Source: Trichobilharzia regenti (lineage: Eukaryota > Platyhelminthes > Trematoda > Strigeidida > Schistosomatidae). Taken from it: a stretch of DNA of 64,000 nt. The notes under the pieces were generated by a model. That model saw nothing but the letters and a program-made list of their open reading frames with translations. It had not been told where the DNA came from and ran no database searches. Below are positions 3,505 to 61,335 of the stretch, piece after piece (within the stretch, counting starts at the first letter, position 1; every line of letters begins with the position of its first letter). The DNA lies in NCBI GenBank assembly GCA_944472135.2, contig OX235263.1:12383517-12447516 (forward strand), read 5' to 3'. The position numbers were made by a program, and so were the translations under genes.

Positions 3505-4125
3505 ATGTTGATAACTGGTTTTAGTCTAACTATTGGCCGAACTGACGAGAATATCAAAGCCAGAATCGGAAAAGCAAGACGAGCTTTCATTACTCTCAAG
3601 TTTGTGTGGAGGTCAGCAGCACTCAGCACCAGAAATAAGATACGAATTTTCAACTCCAATGTGAAGTCACTGCTACTATACGGACCAAAGACTTGGCGCG
3701 TCATAAAAAGCACCTCACACAAACTACAGACCTTCATCATCAGCTGTCTTCACTCAATACTTCGTTGAAGATCAAATGGCTGGTCAGGAAAGACCAGCAA
3801 CAGGGATCTCTGGCAATGAGCGAACCAACCAGGAACCGATTCTGGAAAAATTTAGCAGGAAGTAACGGAGATGAATTGGCTGGTCATACTCTGAGGAAAC
3901 CATCAAGTGATTGACATCACTAGACAAGCCACCGCTCGTGTGGAACCCGAAAGGGAAGCGGTGAGTTGCTCGTCCAAGGGTGACTTGGATAAGGTCATGT
4001 GAGTAGGAGATGAAAGCGTGTGGGCAGACTCGGAGCCAGGTGAAAACTCTAGCAGAGAACCGAACGCAATGAAGACGCGCGACTGAAGCCCTATGTTCCT
4101 CTAGAAGTTAAAGGAAATAATAATG
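3505..4125 (+). mobile_element. SR2-like RTE retrotransposon, 5'-truncated 3' end
   Basis: The plus frame reads GRTDENIKARIGKARRAF then WRSAALSTRNKIRIFNSNVK and LLLYGPKTW, the C-terminal part of an RTE-clade reverse transcriptase (the family form is YLGS, ARIGKAR, LLYGSETW). Frames break after about 3768. The 3' end at 4085-4125 has the family signature GAAGCCCTATGTTCCTCTAG followed by AATAATAATG repeats. It lacks the endonuclease and the RT catalytic core, so it is a dead 5' truncation. Confidence 0.5.
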
Positions 4126-4624
4126 ATAAACAATTTAGTCTAATTGCTCTTCAACCGATATCACTGGATTGTGGCAAGACCTGTAACAACATTCGCTAAA
4201 ACAAGCGTAGCTTGTCAGTTCATTGTAAAATGCCACTTGGGTTCAAGCAGCAGCTGTTTGTTAGGCAACAGTGTTACATGATCTCCAGTCTTTGTGAATA
4301 ATACTGTGAAGAGGTTTTAATTTCAATGAGTATTAGAAAAGTTATCGAGTAAATAGGCTTCATTTGAAATTTCATTAAATTAGAATCACACTTATACTAT
4401 AATGGCGGATATTCTTCGCACAAATAGAAAAGACGATGCCTTAGTTATTGGTACATTATCACTATACCAGTAAATGAGTTACAAAGACAGAATGATTATC
4501 AGCCTAAATGTGTTTTTACAATGGCATCATAAAGTGATGTCATTCGCTCTTAAAGAGTTCGATATAAACTCAATCAAGAAAAAAGGTTTGTACAAACACT
4601 AATCAGATTGAAGTTAATCGGTGG
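4126..4624. other. AT-rich stretch without a recognised gene
   Basis: No ORF with a recognisable domain, no RNA gene and no clear repeat boundary was seen here. Confidence 0.5.
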
Positions 4625-4768
4625 ATAGTGACTAGCAGTGGAATCCAGGATGCACATTTCTTCCCATTTGGGACTACTCATCTGGATGTACACGCATTCC
4701 GCAGTGAGTGATGATGTTCCCACTAGCTTGGTTAGTTAACGGTGCACGGAATGAATAATACGCAATAT
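4625..4768 (-). mobile_element. Sm-alpha hammerhead SINE fragment
   Basis: Minus-strand reading gives GGGAACATCATCACTCACTG, then stem I ATCCAG, a damaged core (ATGAGTA in place of CUGANGA), stem II GTCC/GGGA, AGAAATGTGCATC and CTGGAT, followed by TCCACTGCTAGTCAC. This is the ribozyme half of the Sm-alpha element; the tRNA-like head is missing or replaced. Core damage predicts no self-cleavage (ribozyme about 4643-4688). Confidence 0.5.
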
Positions 4769-18154: not shown

Positions 18155-18650
18155 CTTGATCGATTAATTAACTGATGTCAGCTCATGATTAAATCCTCCA
18201 TGCAATCAAACAAAATCCCTACAAAACCAATACTTGAAAATTAATCTGTGCTCACTAGTGACTGGCCCTATTCAGGCAGTTAACCTGGGGTTCTAGTGGG
18301 AAGCTGTGACCAGTAGGGTACAGCAGGTTGAAGATGAGGAAGTAACTCATCGAAGAAGACATTGCGATGTGGTCGCGCTATGTCGTGAACTGGCAGAAGT
18401 TAGAATTCAAGGACCATTGGATCGGGTCCCAGTGGCTTAATGGTCTACGAGCTCGCCTTGTAACCAGAAGGTCCTGGGTTCGAATGGTGGTGGATGCGTA
18501 CTGATGAGGAGTCCCAAACTAGGACGAAACAGCTGTCCAGTACTCCCAGGTTTTCCAGTGGTTCTCTAACTGATGTCAGCTCATGATTAAATCCTTCATA
18601 CAATCAAACCAAATCCCTACAAAACCAATACTTGAAAAATGAATCTGTTA
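18155..18650 (+). mobile_element. Hammerhead SINE type 1 (long copy) preceded by a second tail
   Basis: A tail piece (GATGTCAGCTCATGATTAAA) at about 18176-18240 precedes a copy with leader GGTCGCGCTATGTCGTGAAC, tRNA-like head (CTTGTAACCAGAAGGTCC, GGTTCGAAT) resembling tRNA-Thr with anticodon-loop CTTGTAA, a hammerhead at 18498-18543 and tail to CCAATACTTG. The ribozyme has perfect stem I (GTACTG/CAGTAC), stem II (GTCC/GGAC), GAAA and stem III (ACAG/CTGT), but its core is ATGAGGA, with C3 changed to A; an alternative register would use CTGATGA with three extra bases. Activity is doubtful. Confidence 0.5.
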
Positions 18651-26059: not shown

Positions 26060-26852
26060 TTACGTCTTTTATCGCTTTGTCTAAATTCATAAAAGTTGGT
26101 TATTGTGTTTCGTATTCAGTTTTTTAGGGGAGATACTCTTGTGGAGATTCTATCCCAACGTTTAACCTGGGCGATCAAGAAAACTTTCTACTCTGTACGT
26201 CTGTGTCTCTTCACTAGCCGTCCAATGTTCACCAGCAACTCAAAGATGTCTTACCTAACCTTAGCTCTTCTTCATGCATATACCATTTTAACTGTTCCTG
26301 TGGTTCAAGTTATGTAGGGCGCACGATTAGGCAGGTTCGTCTACGGGTTCGAGAACACTTACCAGCTTGGTTCAGCAGGGGGGAAACTAAGTGCATAAAA
26401 AGCTCGATCCTGTCACACCTGGTCGATACTGGACATCGCATCGATGTCAAAACAGCTTTCAGAGTTATATACCGAATTCCAAAGTCGCTATCACGTACAG
26501 TTCGCTTACGTCTCCTACACATAGCTGAAGCTGTTGCAATAAGATCGACTAAACCGGAACTGTGTATCCAGCAGGAACACGTCCAGACACTGTTCCTACC
26601 GTGGTCAACCTTGGATTGAAGATTTTTCTTCTCACCAAGAGTGCTCCTTCCCCTTAACCCTCTTGGTTTTTTTGTTTTTTTTCTTTTTACTTTGCTTATT
26701 ATTATAAATATTATTATTATTTTTCGTCATAATTTATGTCCTTTATGCAAACATTCCCTCAATACTATCGAATTTTCATTTGTACGGACCTATTATTAGT
26801 GATATTATCTGTTTTCTCAATATATGCCTCCACCTGTTTCATTTAACATATT
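26060..26852 (+). mobile_element. Penelope-like element with nearly complete GIY-YIG domain (left part, interrupted)
   Basis: Plus coding: VYRIQFFRGDTLVEIL, LTWAIKKTFYSVRL, then after a one-base shift CIYHFNCSCGSSYVGRTIRQ, RVREHLPAWFSRG, KSSILSHLVDTGHRIDVKTA, LLHIAEAVAIRSTKPELCIQ, TLFLPWSTLD stop near 26620. All GIY-YIG landmarks are present: the YVG segment, the Arg of the R-V-R-E-H helix and the C-terminal helices. The 3' tail is split at 26848 by an LTR retrotransposon and resumes at 28624-29035. Confidence 0.5.
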
Positions 26853-31641: not shown

Positions 31642-32039
31642 TTATCAAGTATTGGTTTTGTAGGGATTTTGTTTGATTGCATGGAGGATTTAATCATGAG
31701 CTGACATCAGTTAGAGAACCACTGGAAAACCTGGGAGTACTGGACAGCTGTTTCGTCCTAGTTTGGGACTCTTCAGCAGTACGCACCCACCGGGATTCGA
31801 ACCCAGGACCTTCTGGCAGAAGTTAGAATTCAAAGACCATTGGATCGGGTCCCAGTGGCTCAATGGTCTACGAGCTCGCCTTGTAACCAGAAGGTCCTGG
31901 GTTCGAATCCCGGTGGGTGCGTACTGATGAAGGGTCCCCGACTAGTACGAAACAGCTGTCCAGTACTCCCAGGTTTTCCAGTGGTTCTCTAACTGATGTC
32001 AGCTCATGATTAAATCCTCCATGCAACCTATTTTATTAG
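31642..32039. mobile_element. Fold-back hammerhead SINE type 1 with 13-bp target duplication
   Basis: ACCTATTTTATTA occurs on both sides (about 31638-31650 and 32027-32039). Between them is a minus half (tail, ribozyme, part of head; to about 31812) and a plus full copy (leader, tRNA-Thr-like head, ribozyme, tail; about 31813-32026). The arms from the tail to the B-box (about 31678-31812 and 31886-32026) are near-perfect inverted repeats. Both outer ends are 3' tails, so this inserted as one fold-back unit into a PLE tail. Confidence 0.5.
31737..31782 (-). ncRNA. Hammerhead ribozyme with fully intact core
   Basis: Read on the minus strand: stem I GTACTG; core CTGAAGA (fits CUGANGA); stem II GTCC-CAAACTA-GGAC, 4 bp; GAAA; stem III ACAG/CTGT, a loopless palindrome; cleavage-site C; stem I return CAGTAC (6 of 6 pairs). 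Every conserved position is present. The layout matches the Sm-alpha hammerhead, known to self-cleave, but uses a different stem I and a short stem III. The partner copy on the plus strand (31921-31966) has core ATGAAGG and a stem II mismatch and is probably dead. Confidence 0.5.
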
Positions 32040-33179: not shown

Positions 33180-34330
33180 GGGCACTAAGGTAGAGCATAA
33201 CTCCGTTATAGATAAGATTTTACTTTGATAAATCACACAGTGTTGTACAGTAATATTAACTGATGACGTTACGAGCAAAAATTATTGCTCATAATCATAT
33301 CAAGGCATTACTTACACAACTTTTTACTTCATTTATATACATTGGTGAAAATGATTAGACATTTGAGTAAAATCAATACATTGATGATACTTTCATTATC
33401 TGTGATGAGAACCTGGAGCTTGAAAACATACTTCAAACATTCAACAATGCCCACCAAAACATTGAATTCACTCTTAAAGCTGAATCTAACGGAATATTCG
33501 ACTTCCTCGACGTCCATCTGACAAGAAACACCGACAACTCTATGAAGAGGTCCATATACAAAAAGCCCACATGGACTGGACAATTCATCAACTTTCAAAG
33601 CTTCGTAACCCTAAGGAGAAAGAGGAACTTGATATACGCTCTTTTCTCGAAGATTCGGAAGATAAGCAGCGAGGGAGTGATTGACGAAGAACTGGGTAAT
33701 CTCCGAAAAACCTTGATGGAAAACGGTTTTTCGCCTAGGTTTATAGACAAAAATATCAAATCAAAGAAGACTTCCGAACAAGTCAAATCCGTTCAAAAGA
33801 AAATACTTCTGCTTAATCTAGAATTCAAATGTGACATCGAAGCAGAAATCTTTCGGAAACAGCTCTGCAAATATCTAAGGAAAACATACTTCACCGCCAG
33901 CCTACGACTGACGTTTTCCTGCAATAAACTGTTCTGCCAAAACGCAAAAGACAAGCTGTCGCATTGGGCTACTTCAAAGTGCATATACCAGTTTAATTGC
34001 TCGTGTGGAGCTGAGTACATCAGTCGTACAATGAACCAACTTGAAAGACGCGCTAGTGAGCACTCTCCAGCCTGGATAGTAAAAGGAGAACGAAAACGTA
34101 TATACAGTTCAGTGAAAGAACATCTGGTCTATTCAGGACATTCAGCACCATTCGAAAAAATCCTTCCAAATAAGATTCGATCAAACCTATCAAAGGGAGT
34201 AAAATTAAGATATCGGGGAATAGTTGAGGCACTAGCTATCCCAAAGCTCAAATCAATGTAAGATAAAGTACATTCAGAAATAATATTAGTGTCATTAATC
34301 AAATATAATCAGGTGGGAAATAAGATGTTT
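33180..34330 (+). mobile_element. Penelope-like element, RT palm to GIY-YIG, with inverted tail at left
   Basis: Bases 33180-33345 are the PLE tail in minus orientation, including a hammerhead-like block. The plus frame is then open from about 33380 to 34261: it starts at the RT catalytic motif (QYIDDTFIICDENLELENIL), continues through FNNAHQNIEFTLKAE and SNGIFDFLDVHL, and the linker and endonuclease follow (separate entry). The 5' half of the RT is missing. Confidence 0.5.
33380..34261 (+). pseudogene. PLE RT C-terminus plus GIY-YIG endonuclease, long open frame
   Basis: About 293 codons without a stop. After the YIDD box come SIYKKPTWTGQFINFQSF, LRKTLMENGFSPRFIDKNIK, KILLLNLEFKCDIEAEIF, then the GIY-YIG part SKCIYQFNCSCGAEYISRTM, LERRASEHSPAWIVKGERK, SSVKEHLVYSGH and RGIVEALAIPKLKSM. 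The central YIG is YIS here, a change at a conserved glycine likely to weaken endonuclease activity. There is no RT fingers region, so the protein could not copy RNA. Recent truncation is likely because the frame is still open. Confidence 0.5.
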
Positions 34331-40783: not shown

Positions 40784-40833
40784 AAAAAATATGGAACGCT
40801 TCACGATTTTGCGTGTCATCTTGCGCAGGGGCC

Positions 40834-40873
<40 letters not shown>

Positions 40874-40890
40874 ACCGCCGAAGCGAATAC
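40784..40890 (-). pseudogene. U6 spliceosomal snRNA copy
   Basis: Minus strand starts GTATTCGCTTCGGCGGTACA (canonical U6 begins GTGCTTGCTTCGGC) and contains the invariant ACAGAGAAGATTAGCATGG block and GCCCCTGCGCAAG, then ATGACACGCAAAATCGTGAA and a terminal T run. The stretch around ACAGAGA is intact. One base is missing in the GGATGAC block and one is changed in AAATTCG. No snRNA promoter was identified and it is fused to a SINE, so it is treated as a retropseudogene. A real gene cannot be excluded by eye. Confidence 0.5.
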
Positions 40891-40964: not shown

Positions 40965-41268
40965 TATTTCCAACTCCTAAGATGAGGCAGTAACTAATCG
41001 AAGAAGGCATTGCGAAGTGGTCGCACTATGTCATGAATTGGCAGAAGTTAGAATTCATGGGTTGGCCATTGGATTGAGTCCCAGTGGCTTAATGGTCTAT
41101 AGGCTGGCTAGCCTTGCAACTAGAAGGTTCTAGGTTCGATCCCTGGCGGTAGGTGCGTACTGACGAAGAGTCTCAAACTGGGACAAAACAGCTGGCTGTC
41201 CAGTACTCCCATTTGCTTTCCCAATAGTTTTCTAACTCACGATGAAATCCTCCAACCAAATACGAAGC
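40965..41268 (+). mobile_element. Hammerhead SINE type 1
   Basis: Leader GGTCGCACTATGTCATGAAT, head (CTTGCAACTAGAAGGTTC, GGTTCGATCCC), ribozyme near 41157-41207 with GTACTG, core ACGAAGA, stem II GTCTC/GGGAC, AAAA in place of GAAA and an expanded stem III (ACAGCTGGCTGT), and tail CACGATGAAATCC. Two core changes predict no activity. It lies in the USP40-like intron before the FGW exon. Confidence 0.5.
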
Positions 41269-41272
41269 CTCT

Positions 41273-41350
41273 TATTGAATTTGAGATTTTCCCGTCGATT
41301 GACTGGACTGAAGTGCTCGGTCTCAGGTTGACATGTCGGCTTCTTTTGCA
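41273..41350. repeat. Left arm of the inverted repeat around the 7SL/Sm-alpha block
   Basis: GATTTTCCCGTCGATTGACT and GGTCTCAGGTTGACATGTCG reappear inverted at 41838-41925, and once more at 58863-58925 in left-arm orientation. It marks the edges of the 7SL/Sm-alpha composite. Confidence 0.5.
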
Positions 41351-41384
41351 GATGCTTCGCCGATGTCTGGGCATTCAGCTTGTA

Positions 41385-41490
41385 TTTAAACGGTGGATGG
41401 TGACTAGCAGTGGAATCCAGGATGCGCATTTTGTCCTATTCGGGACTCGTCAGCTGGGTGTACCTGCATTTCCCAGTGAGTGATGGTGTT
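41385..41490 (-). mobile_element. Sm-alpha hammerhead part, fused to 7SL
   Basis: Minus strand continues from the 7SL piece with GGGAACACCATCACTCACTG, then stem I CCCAG, core CTGACGA (valid CUGANGA), stem II GTCC-CGAATA-GGAC, AAAA in place of GAAA (G12 lost), stem III ATGC/GCAT, C and CTGGAT (ribozyme 41415-41459). Apart from G12 the ribozyme is complete. The usual Sm-alpha tRNA-like head is replaced by 7SL. Confidence 0.5.
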
Positions 41491-41491
41491 C

Positions 41492-41686
41492 CCCCTGGGC
41501 AGGTTTGCCCCTTCTTAGTCGACCTGGACAACCCGTCCTCCGACAGGTCATCCATATCGGCGCTTTGCTTAGCGTGGACGCCCGATCAACATGAGCAGCC
41601 ATATGCCAGAACTCCCGGTCCCGCAAAATTCCGCACCCTGGCCTCCAAGTAGCTAGATTACAGGTGTACGCCACCACGACCAGCCT
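41492..41686 (-). ncRNA. 7SL (SRP) RNA segment, about the first two thirds
   Basis: Minus strand starts GGCTGGTCGTGGTGGCGTAC and ACCTGTAATCTAGCTACTTG, the 5' (Alu) domain including the GTGGCG and AGCTACT elements, then GGGAGTTCTGGCATATGGC, TGATCGGGCGTCCACGCTAA, GATATGGATGACCTGTCGGA, GTTGTCCAGGTCG and AGAAGGGGCAAACCTGCCC, in the order found in 7SL up to about nucleotide 200 of the roughly 300-nt molecule. The 3' Alu-closing end is absent; the sequence passes directly into Sm-alpha. It is therefore a 7SL-derived retrocopy rather than a complete SRP RNA gene. It reveals what the worm's own 7SL looks like. The Alu-like appearance of 41634-41686 is explained by this. Confidence 0.5.
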
Positions 41687-41837
41687 TTCACACCACGATA
41701 CACCCATTGACTGGGTATTGGTTTTCAGGAGAACCAAACACACGCATCCTTGCCTCTTGCGAGATGAGAACGGCATGCAGGATCAACCTGTGGCGCAACC
41801 ACTCGAGAGCCCTCTCCCTCGGTGGATGATGTTCCAT

Positions 41838-41925
41838 CTGCACAAGAAGCCGACATGTCAACCTGAGACTGAGCACTTCGGTCCAATCAATCGACGGGAA
41901 AAACAAAAATTCACTTCAGTCAATA
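41838..41925. repeat. Right arm of the inverted repeat
   Basis: Reverse complement of 41273-41350 with scattered changes (CGACATGTCAACCTGAGACT, CAATCAATCGACGGGAAAA). Between 41690 and 41838 is GC-richer sequence of unknown kind, part of the same composite. Confidence 0.5.
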
Positions 41926-41939
41926 TGACCGGTTGCACA

Positions 41940-42165
41940 AGAGCCGGCTCTCCTGGCCCAAGTGGTCTAGTGGATAACGTTTTGGCTTTTGAAACTATGG
42001 GTACTGGGTTCAAGCCTCGGTGGGAACATCATCACTCACTGAGAAATTCGGGTACATCCAGCTGACTGCTAGTCCCAAACAGGACGAAACGCACATCCTG
42101 TATTCCACTTCTAGTCACTATCCACAAATTAATTTCGTCATGTATTCAGTCACTAGTCAATCCGA
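41940..42165 (+). mobile_element. Sm-alpha SINE with tRNA-like head
   Basis: Head TGGCCCAAGTGGTCTAGTGG (A-box) and GGGTTCAAGCCTC (B-box), then GTGGGAACATCATCACTCAC, stem I ATCCAG, a damaged core (CTGACTGCTA), stem II GTCC/GGAC, GAAACGCACATC, CTGTAT, and the tail TAGTCACTATCC. This is the ordinary layout of the family, useful for comparison with the 7SL-headed copy. Confidence 0.5.
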
Positions 42166-43350: not shown

Positions 43351-45775
43351 AAACAAGCAATAAGGGTTAATAAAGCAGCATTTAATGAATTCATCAAATT
43401 TCGGTAGAACTCGTCAGCTGAATACTCTACATACACGAATATATATACTTTTGAAATTACATAGGGAGATATAAGACTGATAAGTAAACAAACTACATTG
43501 AATTAATCATGCAGAAAGACAGGTGCGAATGTTTTCCAGGTCATGTTCAAATAGATAAGGGGAGAGAGAGTATGAGAGATCAAAATTAAGATAAATTGCA
43601 TTACGCTTCAATTACATCACTTAGATAAACAATTAGTCATTAGGGAATATAACGAGAATTGCAAACAGACTAATATCAATAGTAATAGTTTTAATAACAA
43701 TAATAATAGTGTTGAAGTGAGTTAAGATAATCTTACGGATAAAGCATAGATTTAAATGAATCAAGAATAATAATAATAATAGTAATAATAACAAAAATAA
43801 TAATAAGAAGAGGTAGAATAATAGTAATAACAAGTAGAGAATAATAAGTAAAGCGTATTACCATGGTAGATTCAGAGTGACGACCATCTCCTTTTGTATA
43901 CAGAGGGCTGGTTTGTAAATTCGAATTGCACAAGCCTCTGCAATTGCAAGCATCTTCTTGTTTCTTTGTTTGCTGACGATGGTGAATGACTTGACGGCGT
44001 CGATATCATGTCCGTAATCCACGAGATGTTTTGTTATTGAGGATTTTGGGACTTTGCACTCAGCTGTTTTCAACCATTTTGGCAAATGCTCCATCATGCG
44101 AGTAGACAATCGCCTTTCCGTACGACCTATGTATTTGCTGCCACAAACACACTCAAATTGATATATGCAGTTTGAAGTGTCGAGGATTGGCGACTGGTCT
44201 TTCCCAGATTGTTGAAGCACTCGCTTGGTGGTGTTAAGGATAACAAGTTTTGCAGCATAATAAGTTCTCTTGATGGCTTTGTCAAGTCTTCGTTTCACTA
44301 CTTCCTGTACGTCATCTCCTTTGAATGGCAAATTGATATAGACAGGTTTCTTTGGAACTGTTGAATTGTTTTGCAAGGGGTAGTTTCTTTAGAGTATTTA
44401 TTAATGAACTTCTCAGGATATCCATTCTTACATAAAATATCCTTCAGAGATTTTATTTCATGTTCAATAGTACTGTCAGAACAAATTTTCGTGCTCTATT
44501 GAACAGTGTTCTGACTAAGTTCTTTTTGTATTCGATTGGAACAAAGCTCTTGAAATGCATGTACTGTCCTGTCCATGAGGACTTTCTAAATATAGATCTT
44601 TCGATTGTGCCATCATTCATTTTGGTCAGAAGAACGTCTAGAAATTTAATAGTATCGTTTTCCTCGTGTTCTACTGTGAAATTGAGATTTGGATGGCATG
44701 ATTGAATTTTGTTAACATGTCTTCCGCTTTTGATCTGCTTTCACAGACAATAAAAATGTCATCAACATATCTTAGGTATGCATTTGTTTCTTGTATATGT
44801 TGCTGCAAAGTACCGGTTTCTAGGCGTGACAAGAAAAGTCTGCGAAAAGTGGTCCCAAAGGGCTTCCCATTGCGACACCATCAACTTGACGGAACAGACG
44901 CCCGTTGAATTGGAATTGGACATTTTTAGTACATAAAAGTAGTAATTTCCTCAATTCCGATTTGGAATGGGTATGTCTTCAGCTTCTTTACATATGAAGT
45001 CGATAGTTTCAACGACTGGCACATTTGTGAAAAGGGAGGTAACATCGAAAGAGACTAAATGCTTATCGGATACATTGAAATCTTTAATTTGATTGACAAA
45101 TTGAAATGAATCAGAGACTATATGTGTTCCGAAACGTTTCAGCAAGGGCTGCAACAGTTCACATAGCCACTGTGCTAATCTGTGGTATGGTGAGTTTATC
45201 ATAGAGAGTATGGGTCTTAACGGCGCTCCTGGTTTGTGTATTTTTACGCGTCCGTATAGTTTTGGGATTTGTGACCCAATCTGCTTTATTAACCCTTATT
45301 GCTTGTTTTAAATTCGTATCGGGAAATAAATGTTTTCAACAAATAGAATATCGCTGCCTGGTTGGTTGCATGACTTTGAGGGTCCCTCGAAAACTATCCA
45401 TTCGAAAACCGTCCACTCAGGCTATCATGGCAGTATATGAATCAGTCATATCTTCGTCGCTAACAGCAACAAATTGTCCGGCCTCACACCTCTGCCTATT
45501 AAAACTTTCAATTGTGGGACCACTGGAAGATATTCGCCAATGATACCTTTCTCACCTTCCGAAAAAGTGCTTGATGCACAGTTGACTTTACCAGCGAAAG
45601 TAAGGTAGTCACCACGTTTGTAGGGGAAGTTGAACACCAAAGTATTTTCCCCTAAAATTTTACCTGGTTCCACTGTCTTGCTATTATTATTGAGGGTTTC
45701 AAAACCAGTGATACATTTACGTTCATTGGGTGTCTATTTTTTAACCTTGTGATGAAAACTACAACTTAGTTATTT
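43351..45775 (-). mobile_element. Penelope-like element with RT and endonuclease blocks
   Basis: Longest PLE in the window. On the minus strand from 45770: EPGKILGENTLVFNFPYKRG (45640), GRLFRQVDGVAMGSPLGPLF (44830-44900, RT motif with the MGSPLGPL core), a YLRYVDDIFIV-like block near 44740-44780, and the intact endonuclease ORF 44376-43858. The 3' tail runs to about 43350. Several frameshifts and stops break the RT half (the open pieces are 45446-45673 and 44951-45202). It lies in the large intron between the first two visible USP40-like exons, same strand as the gene. Confidence 0.5.
43858..44376 (-). CDS. PLE GIY-YIG endonuclease ORF, intact
   Basis: 172 codons: PKKPVYINLPFKGDDVQEVV, RRLDKAIKRTYYAAKLVIL, then SNCIYQFECVCGSKYIGRTE, RRLSTRMMEHLPKWLKTAE, KSSITKHLVDYGHDIDAVKS, MLAIAEACAIRIYKPALCIQ. 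YIG, the R-x-x-x-H helix (STRMMEH) and the KSSITKHL segment are all present. GIY-YIG in PLEs nicks target DNA for retrotransposition. The ATG at 44376 may be internal to the full RT-EN reading frame, which is broken just upstream. Of the PLE endonuclease copies here this one looks the most complete. Confidence 0.5.
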   Translation of the reverse strand: MQNNSTVPKKPVYINLPFKGDDVQEVVKRRLDKAIKRTYYAAKLVILNTTKRVLQQSGKDQSPILDTSNCIYQFECVCGSKYIGRTERRLSTRMMEHLPKWLKTAECKVPKSSITKHLVDYGHDIDAVKSFTIVSKQRNKKMLAIAEACAIRIYKPALCIQKEMVVTLNLPW

Positions 45776-58690: not shown

Positions 58691-59765
58691 TGTAAGTGTA
58701 GAACTTGGGCACAATACTGGTAGAATGTTATTTCATATTAGATAAATCTTAAACAACACACAGTGATGATGCAGCATTAACAACTGGATGACAGACAAGG
58801 TTTCAAGCATAAATTACTGTCACTCATAATCATATCAACTCTAGTCACACATTATTGAATTGAATTTTTGATTTTCCCGTCGATTGATTGGACCAAAGTG
58901 CTCGGTCTCAGGTTGACATGTCGGCTCTAGTTACACAGCTTCACAATTTGTCGTATATTTACTTTCTCTCTTTTTGTCTCTCCAAATTCCCTTTGTTGTT
59001 TGTTGCCACTTTCTATATCCTCGGTGTAGGTGGCGTTGCGTCATTCCGATTGCACGCGTGCTGTGATGTTGAATCGATAAAGAAAGCTTCAGTGATTAAC
59101 TTCATTATCTCCCCATCTAACTATACTACTTTTTAATACTCTCACCCTGTCCCACGCCGTCGTTGTGTGATTACATGCAAATGAGTACAATGCAACGGCT
59201 GAGCTTTTTTTATAGATTATTTAACTTAGCAGGGGGTCACTTATTCTAGATCTAGCTAAAATTTTATGTTCCAGTAATTTAGTTGACCCTGATCTACTAG
59301 TTTGATCTATGTAACTGACTTCAGAAACAGTCATTAGATGGTATTTGATAAATTATATTATCTCTCCTAATTGGATGATCTATTGGATTCTTAAGCCGAA
59401 AAAGTTTATCTCTGAGAGAGTCAACTGTTTGGTTTAAATACCACCCTAATTCCATTCTCATTGAAAGTTCTACGTAAGGCCTTTGACGTCCCTTCTTTAT
59501 ACAACTACGCTACTAGAGATAGGGAAAGGGGCAACAAACAGCATAGGGAGGTTGGAGAGACAGAAGTAGAGGAAGTATAACTATAGGACAAATTGTGAAG
59601 CTGTGTGGTTAAATTGATATGATTATGAGTAGCACTAATTTATGCTCGAATCCTTGTCATCCAGTTGTTAATACTGCATCATCACTGTGTGGCTTTCAAA
59701 AATAAACTTATCCAATGTGGAATTACATTCTACCAGTACAGTGCCTAAGTTCTACACTTACATTA
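58690..59765 (-). mobile_element. Penelope-like element flanked by inverted tails
   Basis: Tail in minus orientation at 58690-58855, then C-terminus (about 58980-59160), GIY remnant and linker (59240-59520), all minus and broken; at 59600-59765 the tail appears again in plus orientation (GATTATGAGTAGCACTAATT, CATCCAGTTGTTAATACTGC). A piece of the 41-kb inverted-repeat sequence (GGTCTCAGGTTGACATGTCG) sits at 58863-58925. Confidence 0.5.
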
Positions 59766-59939: not shown

Positions 59940-61335
59940 ACTCTTTTCAACAACGAATTTATTATCAAGCTGTACAGTCGTATATAAACATATGGTTTTT
60001 AAGAAGTTATGTCTTGTGAGGGAATTGAATCATAAATGTGAATACATTAAATAGTAATAATTGTATGGGATGCAATTTAAAAGTTGGTGATTATAATTAT
60101 ATTTCAGTTGTGAAGTGGCAAAACAATTAATGTCATATGTAGAACAGTTCATGGGATTTATAGAACTTGGAAGGGGTGTGCGATTATAAGATTAGTAGGC
60201 GAATATAATAGAATCAAATCGTTCAGTAACGTTGTTTGAAGTTTAATAACGTAGAATTTAAAGTTAGAAGAAGTTAGGATTCATGGGCCATCGGATCGGG
60301 TCCCAGTGGCTTATTGGTCTACAAGCTTGCTCGCTAGCCTTGTAACCAGAAGGTCCTGGGTCCGAATCCTGGTGGGTGCGTACTGTTGAAGAGTCCCAAA
60401 CTAGGACGAAACAGCTGTCCAGTACTCCCAGGTTTTCCAGTGGTTTTCTAACCAATGTCAGCTCATGATGAAATCCTGTAACCAATCAACCAAATCCCTA
60501 CAAACCAATACTTGAATAGAATTTAACGTTGTAAAACAGAATTGATTTAGATTGGCAAGTAGAACGAGTGAAATAATACCGCAGACAGTTCAACTTGACA
60601 ATAATAATAGTAGCACCAATTGACGCAATTAAGAGGAGAGTATAAAAATTGAATAAACAAAACAAAAAATAAGTGGAGCGAAAATATGAATGGGGATTAC
60701 CATACTTAAGCAAGAAGTGATTAAGACCGTGAAAGTTGGAGAGGTAGGATGAACTTTCTCTGTATGCAGAAATCTGGCTTTTTTATTTCAATGGCCAAAT
60801 CTTCAGCAATACGACAGATGAGTTGAATGCATAATGATTTGAGTAAATTACTTTTCACCTGGTAGGTGACTTTAAAGGCGGAAGCTGAAGCGATAGGGTA
60901 ACCAATATCTACCAGATGCTCGGTGATTGCACCTTGTATAGCCCCTCTTCCACATCTGCGTAACCACGTAGGACAATGCTGTTGCACCCACTTGGATAGA
61001 ACTTGTATCCACATATTTGTCTCAATCTCCTCATGGGATGAAATTTCTTAAAAACTACTGAGCTTGTCTCTGAGTGAGTATGGGGTTTGAATGCAGCCAA
61101 CCTAATTCCTGCTTTATTGGGAATCCTAGGTAGGCTCTCAGATGTTCCCTCCTTATATGATATAACAGTAGATGACTTATATTATGTTTTATTTATGTCA
61201 TCATTATTAGTTTCACAATTATTTTTATTTTGCTTTTTGCCTTTTCTGATCTTCCTAATGAATTTTATAGGATAGTTAAGTTATTAAACACCGACGCTTC
61301 TTCTTCTCTCTGTTTCATTTCATCATTTTAGTCTT
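59940..61335 (-). mobile_element. Penelope-like element, GIY-YIG and tail, interrupted by a SINE
   Basis: Tail 59945-60250 and 60527-60715. Coding on minus: 61014-60721 reads KWVQQHCPTWLRRCGRGAIQ, GAITEHLVDIGYPIASASAF, KVTYQVKSNLLKSLCI and IAEDLAIEIKKPDFCIQRKF; 61100-60909 covers the start of the domain with a frameshift; 61080-61320 is the linker. 61080-61320 and 61440-61760 are the same linker on opposite strands. Confidence 0.5.
60243..60540 (+). mobile_element. Hammerhead SINE type 1 inside the PLE tail, with target duplication
   Basis: TAGAATTTAAAGTT at about 60250-60263 and TAGAATTTAACGTT at about 60516-60529 flank the copy (one difference). Head CTTGTAACCAGAAGGTCCTG, ribozyme 60380-60425: stem I GTACTG/CAGTAC, core TTGAAGA (only C3 changed), stem II GTCC/GGAC, GAAA, stem III ACAG/CTGT. 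Only C3 separates it from the intact ribozyme at 31737. Confidence 0.5.

Follow-up and report, generated by a model that had tools for sequence, protein, structure and literature searches.

We have identified a chimeric retroelement in which a 7SL (SRP) RNA, represented by its 5' two thirds, is fused, directly and in the same orientation, to the hammerhead-bearing body of an Sm-alpha element, at the position where the tRNA-like head of such elements normally ends. The fusion lies in a 64-kb stretch of DNA (referred to below as the window) of a genome that resembles that of a blood fluke, and its parts are summarized in Table 1. It is probable that this structure was produced by a single retrotransposition event of the Sm-alpha type during which the copying enzyme changed template, and within this explanation the 7SL part would thus be a passenger and no selected promoter head, in a copy that is decaying. 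An earlier note on this DNA had described a "7SL-headed SINE"; that a 7SL 5' part meets a hammerhead-bearing Sm-alpha body at the head boundary is confirmed, whereas the family status is unsupported, no second copy having been found in the 64-kb window or in a 290-kb sample of the same genome.

The same note had placed the 7SL/Sm-alpha fusion at positions 41385..41686, leaving the strand, which is the minus strand, unstated; coordinates and content both proved correct, the score of the Metazoa_SRP model (RF00017) being far above background. Searched on 41488-41700 alone, the model gives 115.5 bits (E 3.4e-31) over model positions 1-201, and with the body included it gives 82.4 bits over 41684-41393 (gathering threshold 70). 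Alignment of the 7SL part to the Rfam consensus yields 148 identical columns of 204 aligned and a score of 176, the best of 200 shuffles reaching 50. The predicted fold energy of this part is no better than chance (z -1.25; 29 of 200 shuffles were equally stable). The match begins at nt 1, and the copy comprises the 5' Alu-domain loops, the 5' strands of helices 5 and 8, and the whole of helix 6, GGAG loop included, ending in the apical loop of helix 8. No 3' part of 7SL was found in the body, the downstream and upstream flanks and the opposite strand, where scores of 19-24 fall below the 95% shuffle level.

Database proteins that read through 7SL sequence provide a further view of this copy. 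An open frame across the 7SL part retrieved one protein, P0001, at E<=10 among 4 candidates, and a search with a two-row alignment, yielding 421 candidates, retrieved six at the same threshold, P0001 among them. Four of these six (P0001-P0004) span the junction site, and all of them read QGGNPA there and none the Sm-alpha body; judged from the translations, QGGNPA is the reading expected of ordinary 7SL, unlike the Sm-alpha body. The remaining two, weak matches with E 0.1 and 0.5, stop short of the site, and no candidate came from querying the antisense frame that crosses the junction. With P0001 as a proxy for the host 7SL gene, the fusion carries at least 10 changes in 195 nt, a minimum that counts only amino-acid-visible changes. 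Those at nt 6 and 20 disrupt helix-3 pairs that the P0001 codons would keep, which looks like decay of the 7SL copy. The B-box region shows no amino-acid-visible change relative to P0001, and the A-box region shows a G->T change (box positions from PMC7245038).

The run-on of 7SL into Sm-alpha had been placed at GGGAAC, the normal end of the tRNA-like head, and the comparison copies agree with this placement: the GGGAAC body start is common to the fusion, to the tRNA-headed copy at 42022 and to the headless copy at 4721. The tRNA-like head normally ends in GCCTCGGTGGGAAC, the 7SL consensus reads GCCCAGGgcgGAAAc, and the fusion reads GCCCAGGGGGAAC; because both parents resemble each other at the join, the crossover can be placed only to about a dozen bases. 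Neither the 7SL-to-body junction pattern of the fusion nor the body pattern occurs in public viral contigs (0 matches for each). Three matches of the junction pattern in prokaryote genomes were taken as chance, their best match to the element covering 20-25 nt.

The other part of the fusion is an Sm-alpha SINE in composition, with a body carrying a type I hammerhead and a tail. The order of parts in the element is tRNA head (86 nt), body (106 nt), link (about 35 nt) and X tail (about 85 nt, ending near AAATTCAATT). The tRNA-Gln-like head is missing from the fusion half, where 7SL stands in its place, and is present in the oppositely oriented half of the same locus. There, a tRNA-Gln-TTG query scores 51 against 41940-42040 (maximum of 33 in 1000 shuffles); the Rfam tRNA model found nothing up to E 10 in this interval, and ARAGORN found no tRNA over the window. 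Sm-alpha with a tRNA-Gln-TTG head and a hammerhead is known in S. mansoni (PMC2770079, PMC8490949), and the Sm-alpha/Sj-alpha SINE-like elements are like these partner copies in body, hammerhead and tRNA-Gln-like head, whereas the fusion copy has 7SL instead of that head. The majority sequence of 19 bodies retains CUGACGA and GAAA; the fusion core reads GGAC-AAAA, and an intact CUGANGA / GAAA core is not found in it. The ribozyme of the fusion is probably inactive, because the G12->A change hits the residue described as the general base of the hammerhead reaction (PMC6155905). The two other Sm-alpha copies of the window have hammerhead core faults of other kinds. A solitary X tail, for which no head or body was detected, lies at 58856-58926 (-) in the window.

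Table 1. Coordinates and characteristics of the 7SL/Sm-alpha fusion, its neighbors and related inverted pairs. Positions are those of the window unless a sampled stretch (L0xx) is named.
Feature	Position	Strand	Basis or remarks
7SL (SRP) RNA copy, nt 1 to ~191 (~196 with the common GGGAA)	41494..41684	-	Rfam RF00017 and alignment
Junction zone CCCAGGGGGAA, likeness of 7SL helix-8 loop (GCCCAGGgcgGAAAc) to Sm-alpha head end (GCCTCGGTGGGAAC)	41489..41499	-	RF00017, alignments, proteins P0001-P0004
Sm-alpha body of fusion	41392..41493	-	95.1% identical to majority of 19 bodies
Type I hammerhead ribozyme of fusion, core change G12->A	41415..41459	-	Rfam 55.9 bits; majority of bodies GAAA
Link (41391-41355) and X tail (41354-41274), as usual at the 3' side of the element	41274..41391	-	X 94.9% identical to majority of 12
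Spacer of 150 nt, upstream of 7SL copy	41685..41834	-	No match in window or 29 sampled stretches
X tail of opposite half of inverted pair	41835..41926	+	95.2% identical to majority
tRNA-Gln-like head of opposite half	41936..42021	+	93.0% identical to majority of 12
Sm-alpha body of opposite half; hammerhead 42056-42103 with broken CUGANGA	42022..42130	+	90.6% identical to majority
Comparison Sm-alpha body ending at same boundary, no tRNA head or 7SL	4616..4721	-	Sequence comparison
Example inverted pairs	L024:5845-6461; L006:1362-1923; L029:4509-4960; window 41274-42130
Pairs with body end / X end	L005; L006; L019; L024 5845-6461; L029
Deviating pairs	L026; L007; L032; L024 8107-8301		L026 body end on either side; L007 lacks X; L032 one half truncated; L024 8107-8301 degraded
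Target-site duplications of pairs	L024; L005; L029; L019		16 bp exact; 13 bp exact; 13 bp, one mismatch; 17 bp, two mismatches

Read on the minus strand from 42130 to 41274, the unit in the window consists of the reverse complement of X-tRNA head-body, the spacer (41834-41685), 7SL nt 1 to ~196, and body-link-X. Within this inverted pair of Sm-alpha elements, the inner join is taken up by the 7SL copy and the spacer; in better preserved pairs (e.g., L024 5845-6461) a tRNA head and a short junction are found there instead. Divergence is similar among the modules (Table 1), and the spacer has only a background-level match in Rfam. The 79-nt inverted repeats at 41276-41354/41835-41913 were considered as the terminal repeats of a MITE and rejected, being X tails that are found with the body elsewhere. 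No target-site duplication surrounds the whole unit, the best score of 5 being reached by 53 of 72 mismatched-flank controls, and the best candidate around the 7SL-body piece alone (10 of 12 bases, 23 nt from 7SL) is unconvincing. A full-length match to U6 snRNA (105.8 bits), ending in a T-run, lies at 40785-40890 (-), about 0.5 kb from the fusion.

These features also bear on whether the halves of the fusion were brought together by two events, Sm-alpha copies having inserted beside or into 7SL sequence already present with its 5' flank, either a retrocopy or part of a gene. In that case the spacer could be the genomic flank of the 7SL copy, and the halves are not tied together by any duplication. 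A history of this kind is nevertheless very unlikely, as the far side lacks a 7SL 3' half, no convincing duplication surrounds the body-X part, and the flanking halves together show the order of a sister pair. Insertion of Sm-alpha into a 7SL pseudogene is likewise ruled against by the missing 7SL 3' half nearby.

In the sampled parts of this genome, the paired architecture is found for most Sm-alpha copies. A sample of 29 stretches of 10 kb each (290 kb in total; labels L0xx) from the assembly that contains the window holds 22 further Sm-alpha bodies, giving 25 with the three of the window; the G+C content of the first 210 kb of the sample is 0.38, equal to that of the window. Twenty of the 25 bodies, window included, lie in ten head-to-head inverted pairs, with the left member on the minus and the right member on the plus strand in every case. 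The nine sampled pairs are spread over four contigs (C1, C2, C3, and C6), and five of them have a body end (CCACCAATT or a one-base variant) on one side and an X end on the other. That the unit in the window is an assembly artefact could be argued from the fact that inverted repeats assemble poorly, but with nine other such pairs in sampled stretches of four contigs, and with modules that have diverged like the others, we give this reading hardly any credence. Two further hammerheads that face in opposite directions, L031:3195-3239 (-) and 3532-3576 (+), were seen by Rfam and missed by the search for Sm-alpha bodies.

Target-site duplications were evaluated for nine of the ten pairs against 72 mismatched-flank combinations. 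Duplications exceeding all 72 controls were found in four of the nine, the remaining five including the window unit, and because of these four at least some of the pairs are single insertions. In several pairs (e.g., L006, L019, and L029) X precedes the head on the same strand, and the RNA template would therefore have been tandem or circular; we infer twin priming on a template of this kind for the pairs. A circular RNA template would agree with what has been reported for hammerhead retrozymes (PMC7229834).

A second, more abundant tRNA-headed family is represented in the window by a hammerhead at 31737-31782 (-) that keeps the canonical CUGANGA / GAAA core, and further copies of this family lie at 18498-18543, 60380-60425, and 41157-41206. 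The open frames at 26218-26619 (+), 33371-34261 (+), and 43858-44388 (-) resemble what we take to be fragments of Penelope-like retroelements, a possible source of the enzyme for the hammerhead elements.

The sample also speaks to the number of copies that share the 7SL junction, which is one in the window and zero in 290 kb of the same genome. Seventeen of the 22 sampled bodies reach the head boundary (i.e., begin no further in than nt 11 of the body), the other five being cut further in. A tRNA-like head, whole or partial, is present on 14 of these 17; the three without a recognised one (L005 970, L024 8193, and L026 1118) carry remnants at most, and a 7SL head is present on none of the 17. 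With BLAST, no 7SL was detected in any of the 29 stretches, nor a further 7SL head in the window, and Rfam, applied to 15 of the 29, found no SRP RNA among 18 hammerheads and one miRNA-family match. The sample represents about 0.04% of the six contigs with known lengths (687 Mb), and for this reason thousands of 7SL-headed copies are compatible with none being seen: at the 95% level, finding none in 290 kb is consistent with a density as high as about 10 per Mb, or several thousand copies in 687 Mb. A ceiling on copy number from the 12 SRP hits that PMC2770079 gives for S. mansoni was considered and dropped. That survey could miss such copies, because a typed human 7SL query recovers the fusion only at word size 7 (E 9e-5) and not at 11.

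A true family of 7SL-headed, hammerhead-tailed SINEs, transcribed by RNA polymerase III from the A and B boxes of 7SL and seen here in one old member, would accommodate the start of the match at 7SL nt 1, the junction at the head boundary and a B-box that is intact at the amino-acid-visible level, and the hagfish family SINE1-1_EBu arose via a similar head swap onto a tRNA-SINE (PMC7245038). We nevertheless regard such a family as unlikely. Apart from the counts above, the element has no 3' strand of the Alu domain, a unique spacer separates the 7SL copy from the other half of the pair, and nothing of the kind was recognised in the literature searched. A moderately sized family is unlikely as well; going by the 2020 account in PMC7245038 and the literature searched, it would mean that 7SL-headed SINEs arose independently once more, outside vertebrates and in combination with a ribozyme.

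The probable explanation, a template switch within one retrotransposition event, can be outlined as follows. A reverse transcriptase primed at the target would have copied the X tail, the link and the hammerhead body of an Sm-alpha RNA and stalled at the base of the tRNA-like head. It may then have switched to a 7SL RNA at the resembling stretch in the apical loop of SRP helix 8, continued to the 7SL 5' end, and copied 150 nt from a further template. Joining of this strand to another copy (X-tRNA head-body), primed in the opposite direction, would have completed an inverted pair of the usual kind. The modules, their order and junctions, the architecture of the sister pairs and the duplications of some of them are observed directly, and stalling, template switching, twin priming and a single occurrence are deduced. 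In favor of this explanation, the 7SL copy begins at nt 1 and breaks off at its point of resemblance to the end of the Sm-alpha head, where P0001-P0004 read as ordinary 7SL would; 7SL heads are absent from all 17 boundary-reaching bodies as against tRNA-like heads on 14; the ten pairs have one diverging geometry, and at least four of them are single insertions; no 7SL 3' half was found nearby; the modules show similar divergence; and 7SL and spacer lie at the inner join. An established 7SL-headed element would be less likely to give this position, although it too could have been caught in a pair. The lack of a duplication at the window unit, the spacer without a match, the small sample and the varying architecture of the pairs weaken this explanation, and because the 290-kb sample is small, our confidence in it comes more from structure than from counting.

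The joining could alternatively have taken place between RNAs, a 7SL fragment having been ligated (e.g., by RtcB) to a 5'-truncated Sm-alpha RNA and the product retrotransposed as one. Ligation is a proposed route for chimeras of small RNAs and LINE-1 (PMC13174262), and RtcB ligates animal hammerhead RNAs in vitro (PMC7229834). The junction, however, lies at the end of the tRNA head, away from the hammerhead (41415-41459), and the resemblance at the junction favors strand annealing, which together leave ligation rather improbable.

A template switch of the type that we favor has a precedent in the WEIRD chimeras of the fungus Magnaporthe grisea (viz. WEIRD-MGL, WEIRD-MgSINE, and WEIRD-MgSINE-MGL), in which an abundant non-coding RNA likewise stands directly upstream of a 5'-truncated SINE or LINE, and whose switch sites were placed by the authors where template structure should slow the enzyme (PMC2104539). 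The fungal set comprises 33 bipartite chimeras and one tripartite, with full-length WEIRD and 14-bp direct repeats (PMC2104539), whereas the 7SL of the fusion is 3'-truncated, was seen in one copy, is without a direct repeat and lies inside an inverted pair. Chimeras of small RNAs with LINEs and SINEs are well known; those of LINE-1 with U6, U3, 5S, tRNA, 7SL, and other RNAs similarly include cases where a single insertion joins 7SL RNA to a copy of a retroelement, and newly found types are represented by a few to 21 loci; partners cut on their 3' side occur among them, as the 5S pieces are often nt 1-45 (PMC13174262). These chimeras are driven by LINE-1 (PMC13174262), whereas the element of the fusion is a hammerhead SINE.

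Families of SINEs with a 7SL-derived head provide the other comparison. Primate Alu and rodent B1 likewise begin with 7SL-derived sequence that contains A and B boxes, and hagfish SINE1-1_EBu, which arose when 7SL was fused to an older tRNA SINE, combines a 7SL-derived head with a body and tail common to a tRNA-headed SINE; in 2020 SINE1 was well defined only in Euarchontoglires and hagfish (PMC7245038). Alu and B1 retain 7SL positions 1-63, 76-83, and 267-299, and SINE1-1_EBu, with 2363 full-length copies, has 5' and 3' 7SL parts such that the Alu domain can fold, no ribozyme being mentioned in the part of that source available to us (PMC7245038). The fusion, in contrast, has 7SL from nt 1 to ~196, no 3' part and a hammerhead body. 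Its 5' head is 7SL-derived, as in SINE1, but the paired 5' and 3' parts that close the Alu domain are not present, and it fails the defining feature of SINE1 because the 3' part kept in both SINE1 lineages is missing. In the literature searched, mostly without subscription papers, no fusion of 7SL and a SINE was recognised for a schistosome, a flatworm or any invertebrate.

Our analyses thus point most likely to a single chimeric retro-insertion of a familiar type with an unusual pair of partners. If it was a one-off event, the fusion preserves a clean record of template switching, and the literature searched describes no such chimera for this lineage; it also illustrates how an existing SINE could acquire a 7SL head, a step that has been inferred for the hagfish family. 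If a family were to exist, it would represent a further origin of 7SL-headed SINEs, outside vertebrates. The pattern of inverted pairs may exceed the 7SL fusion in generality and interest, since pairs that were seemingly copied from tandem or circular templates bear on how ribozyme-bearing elements move.
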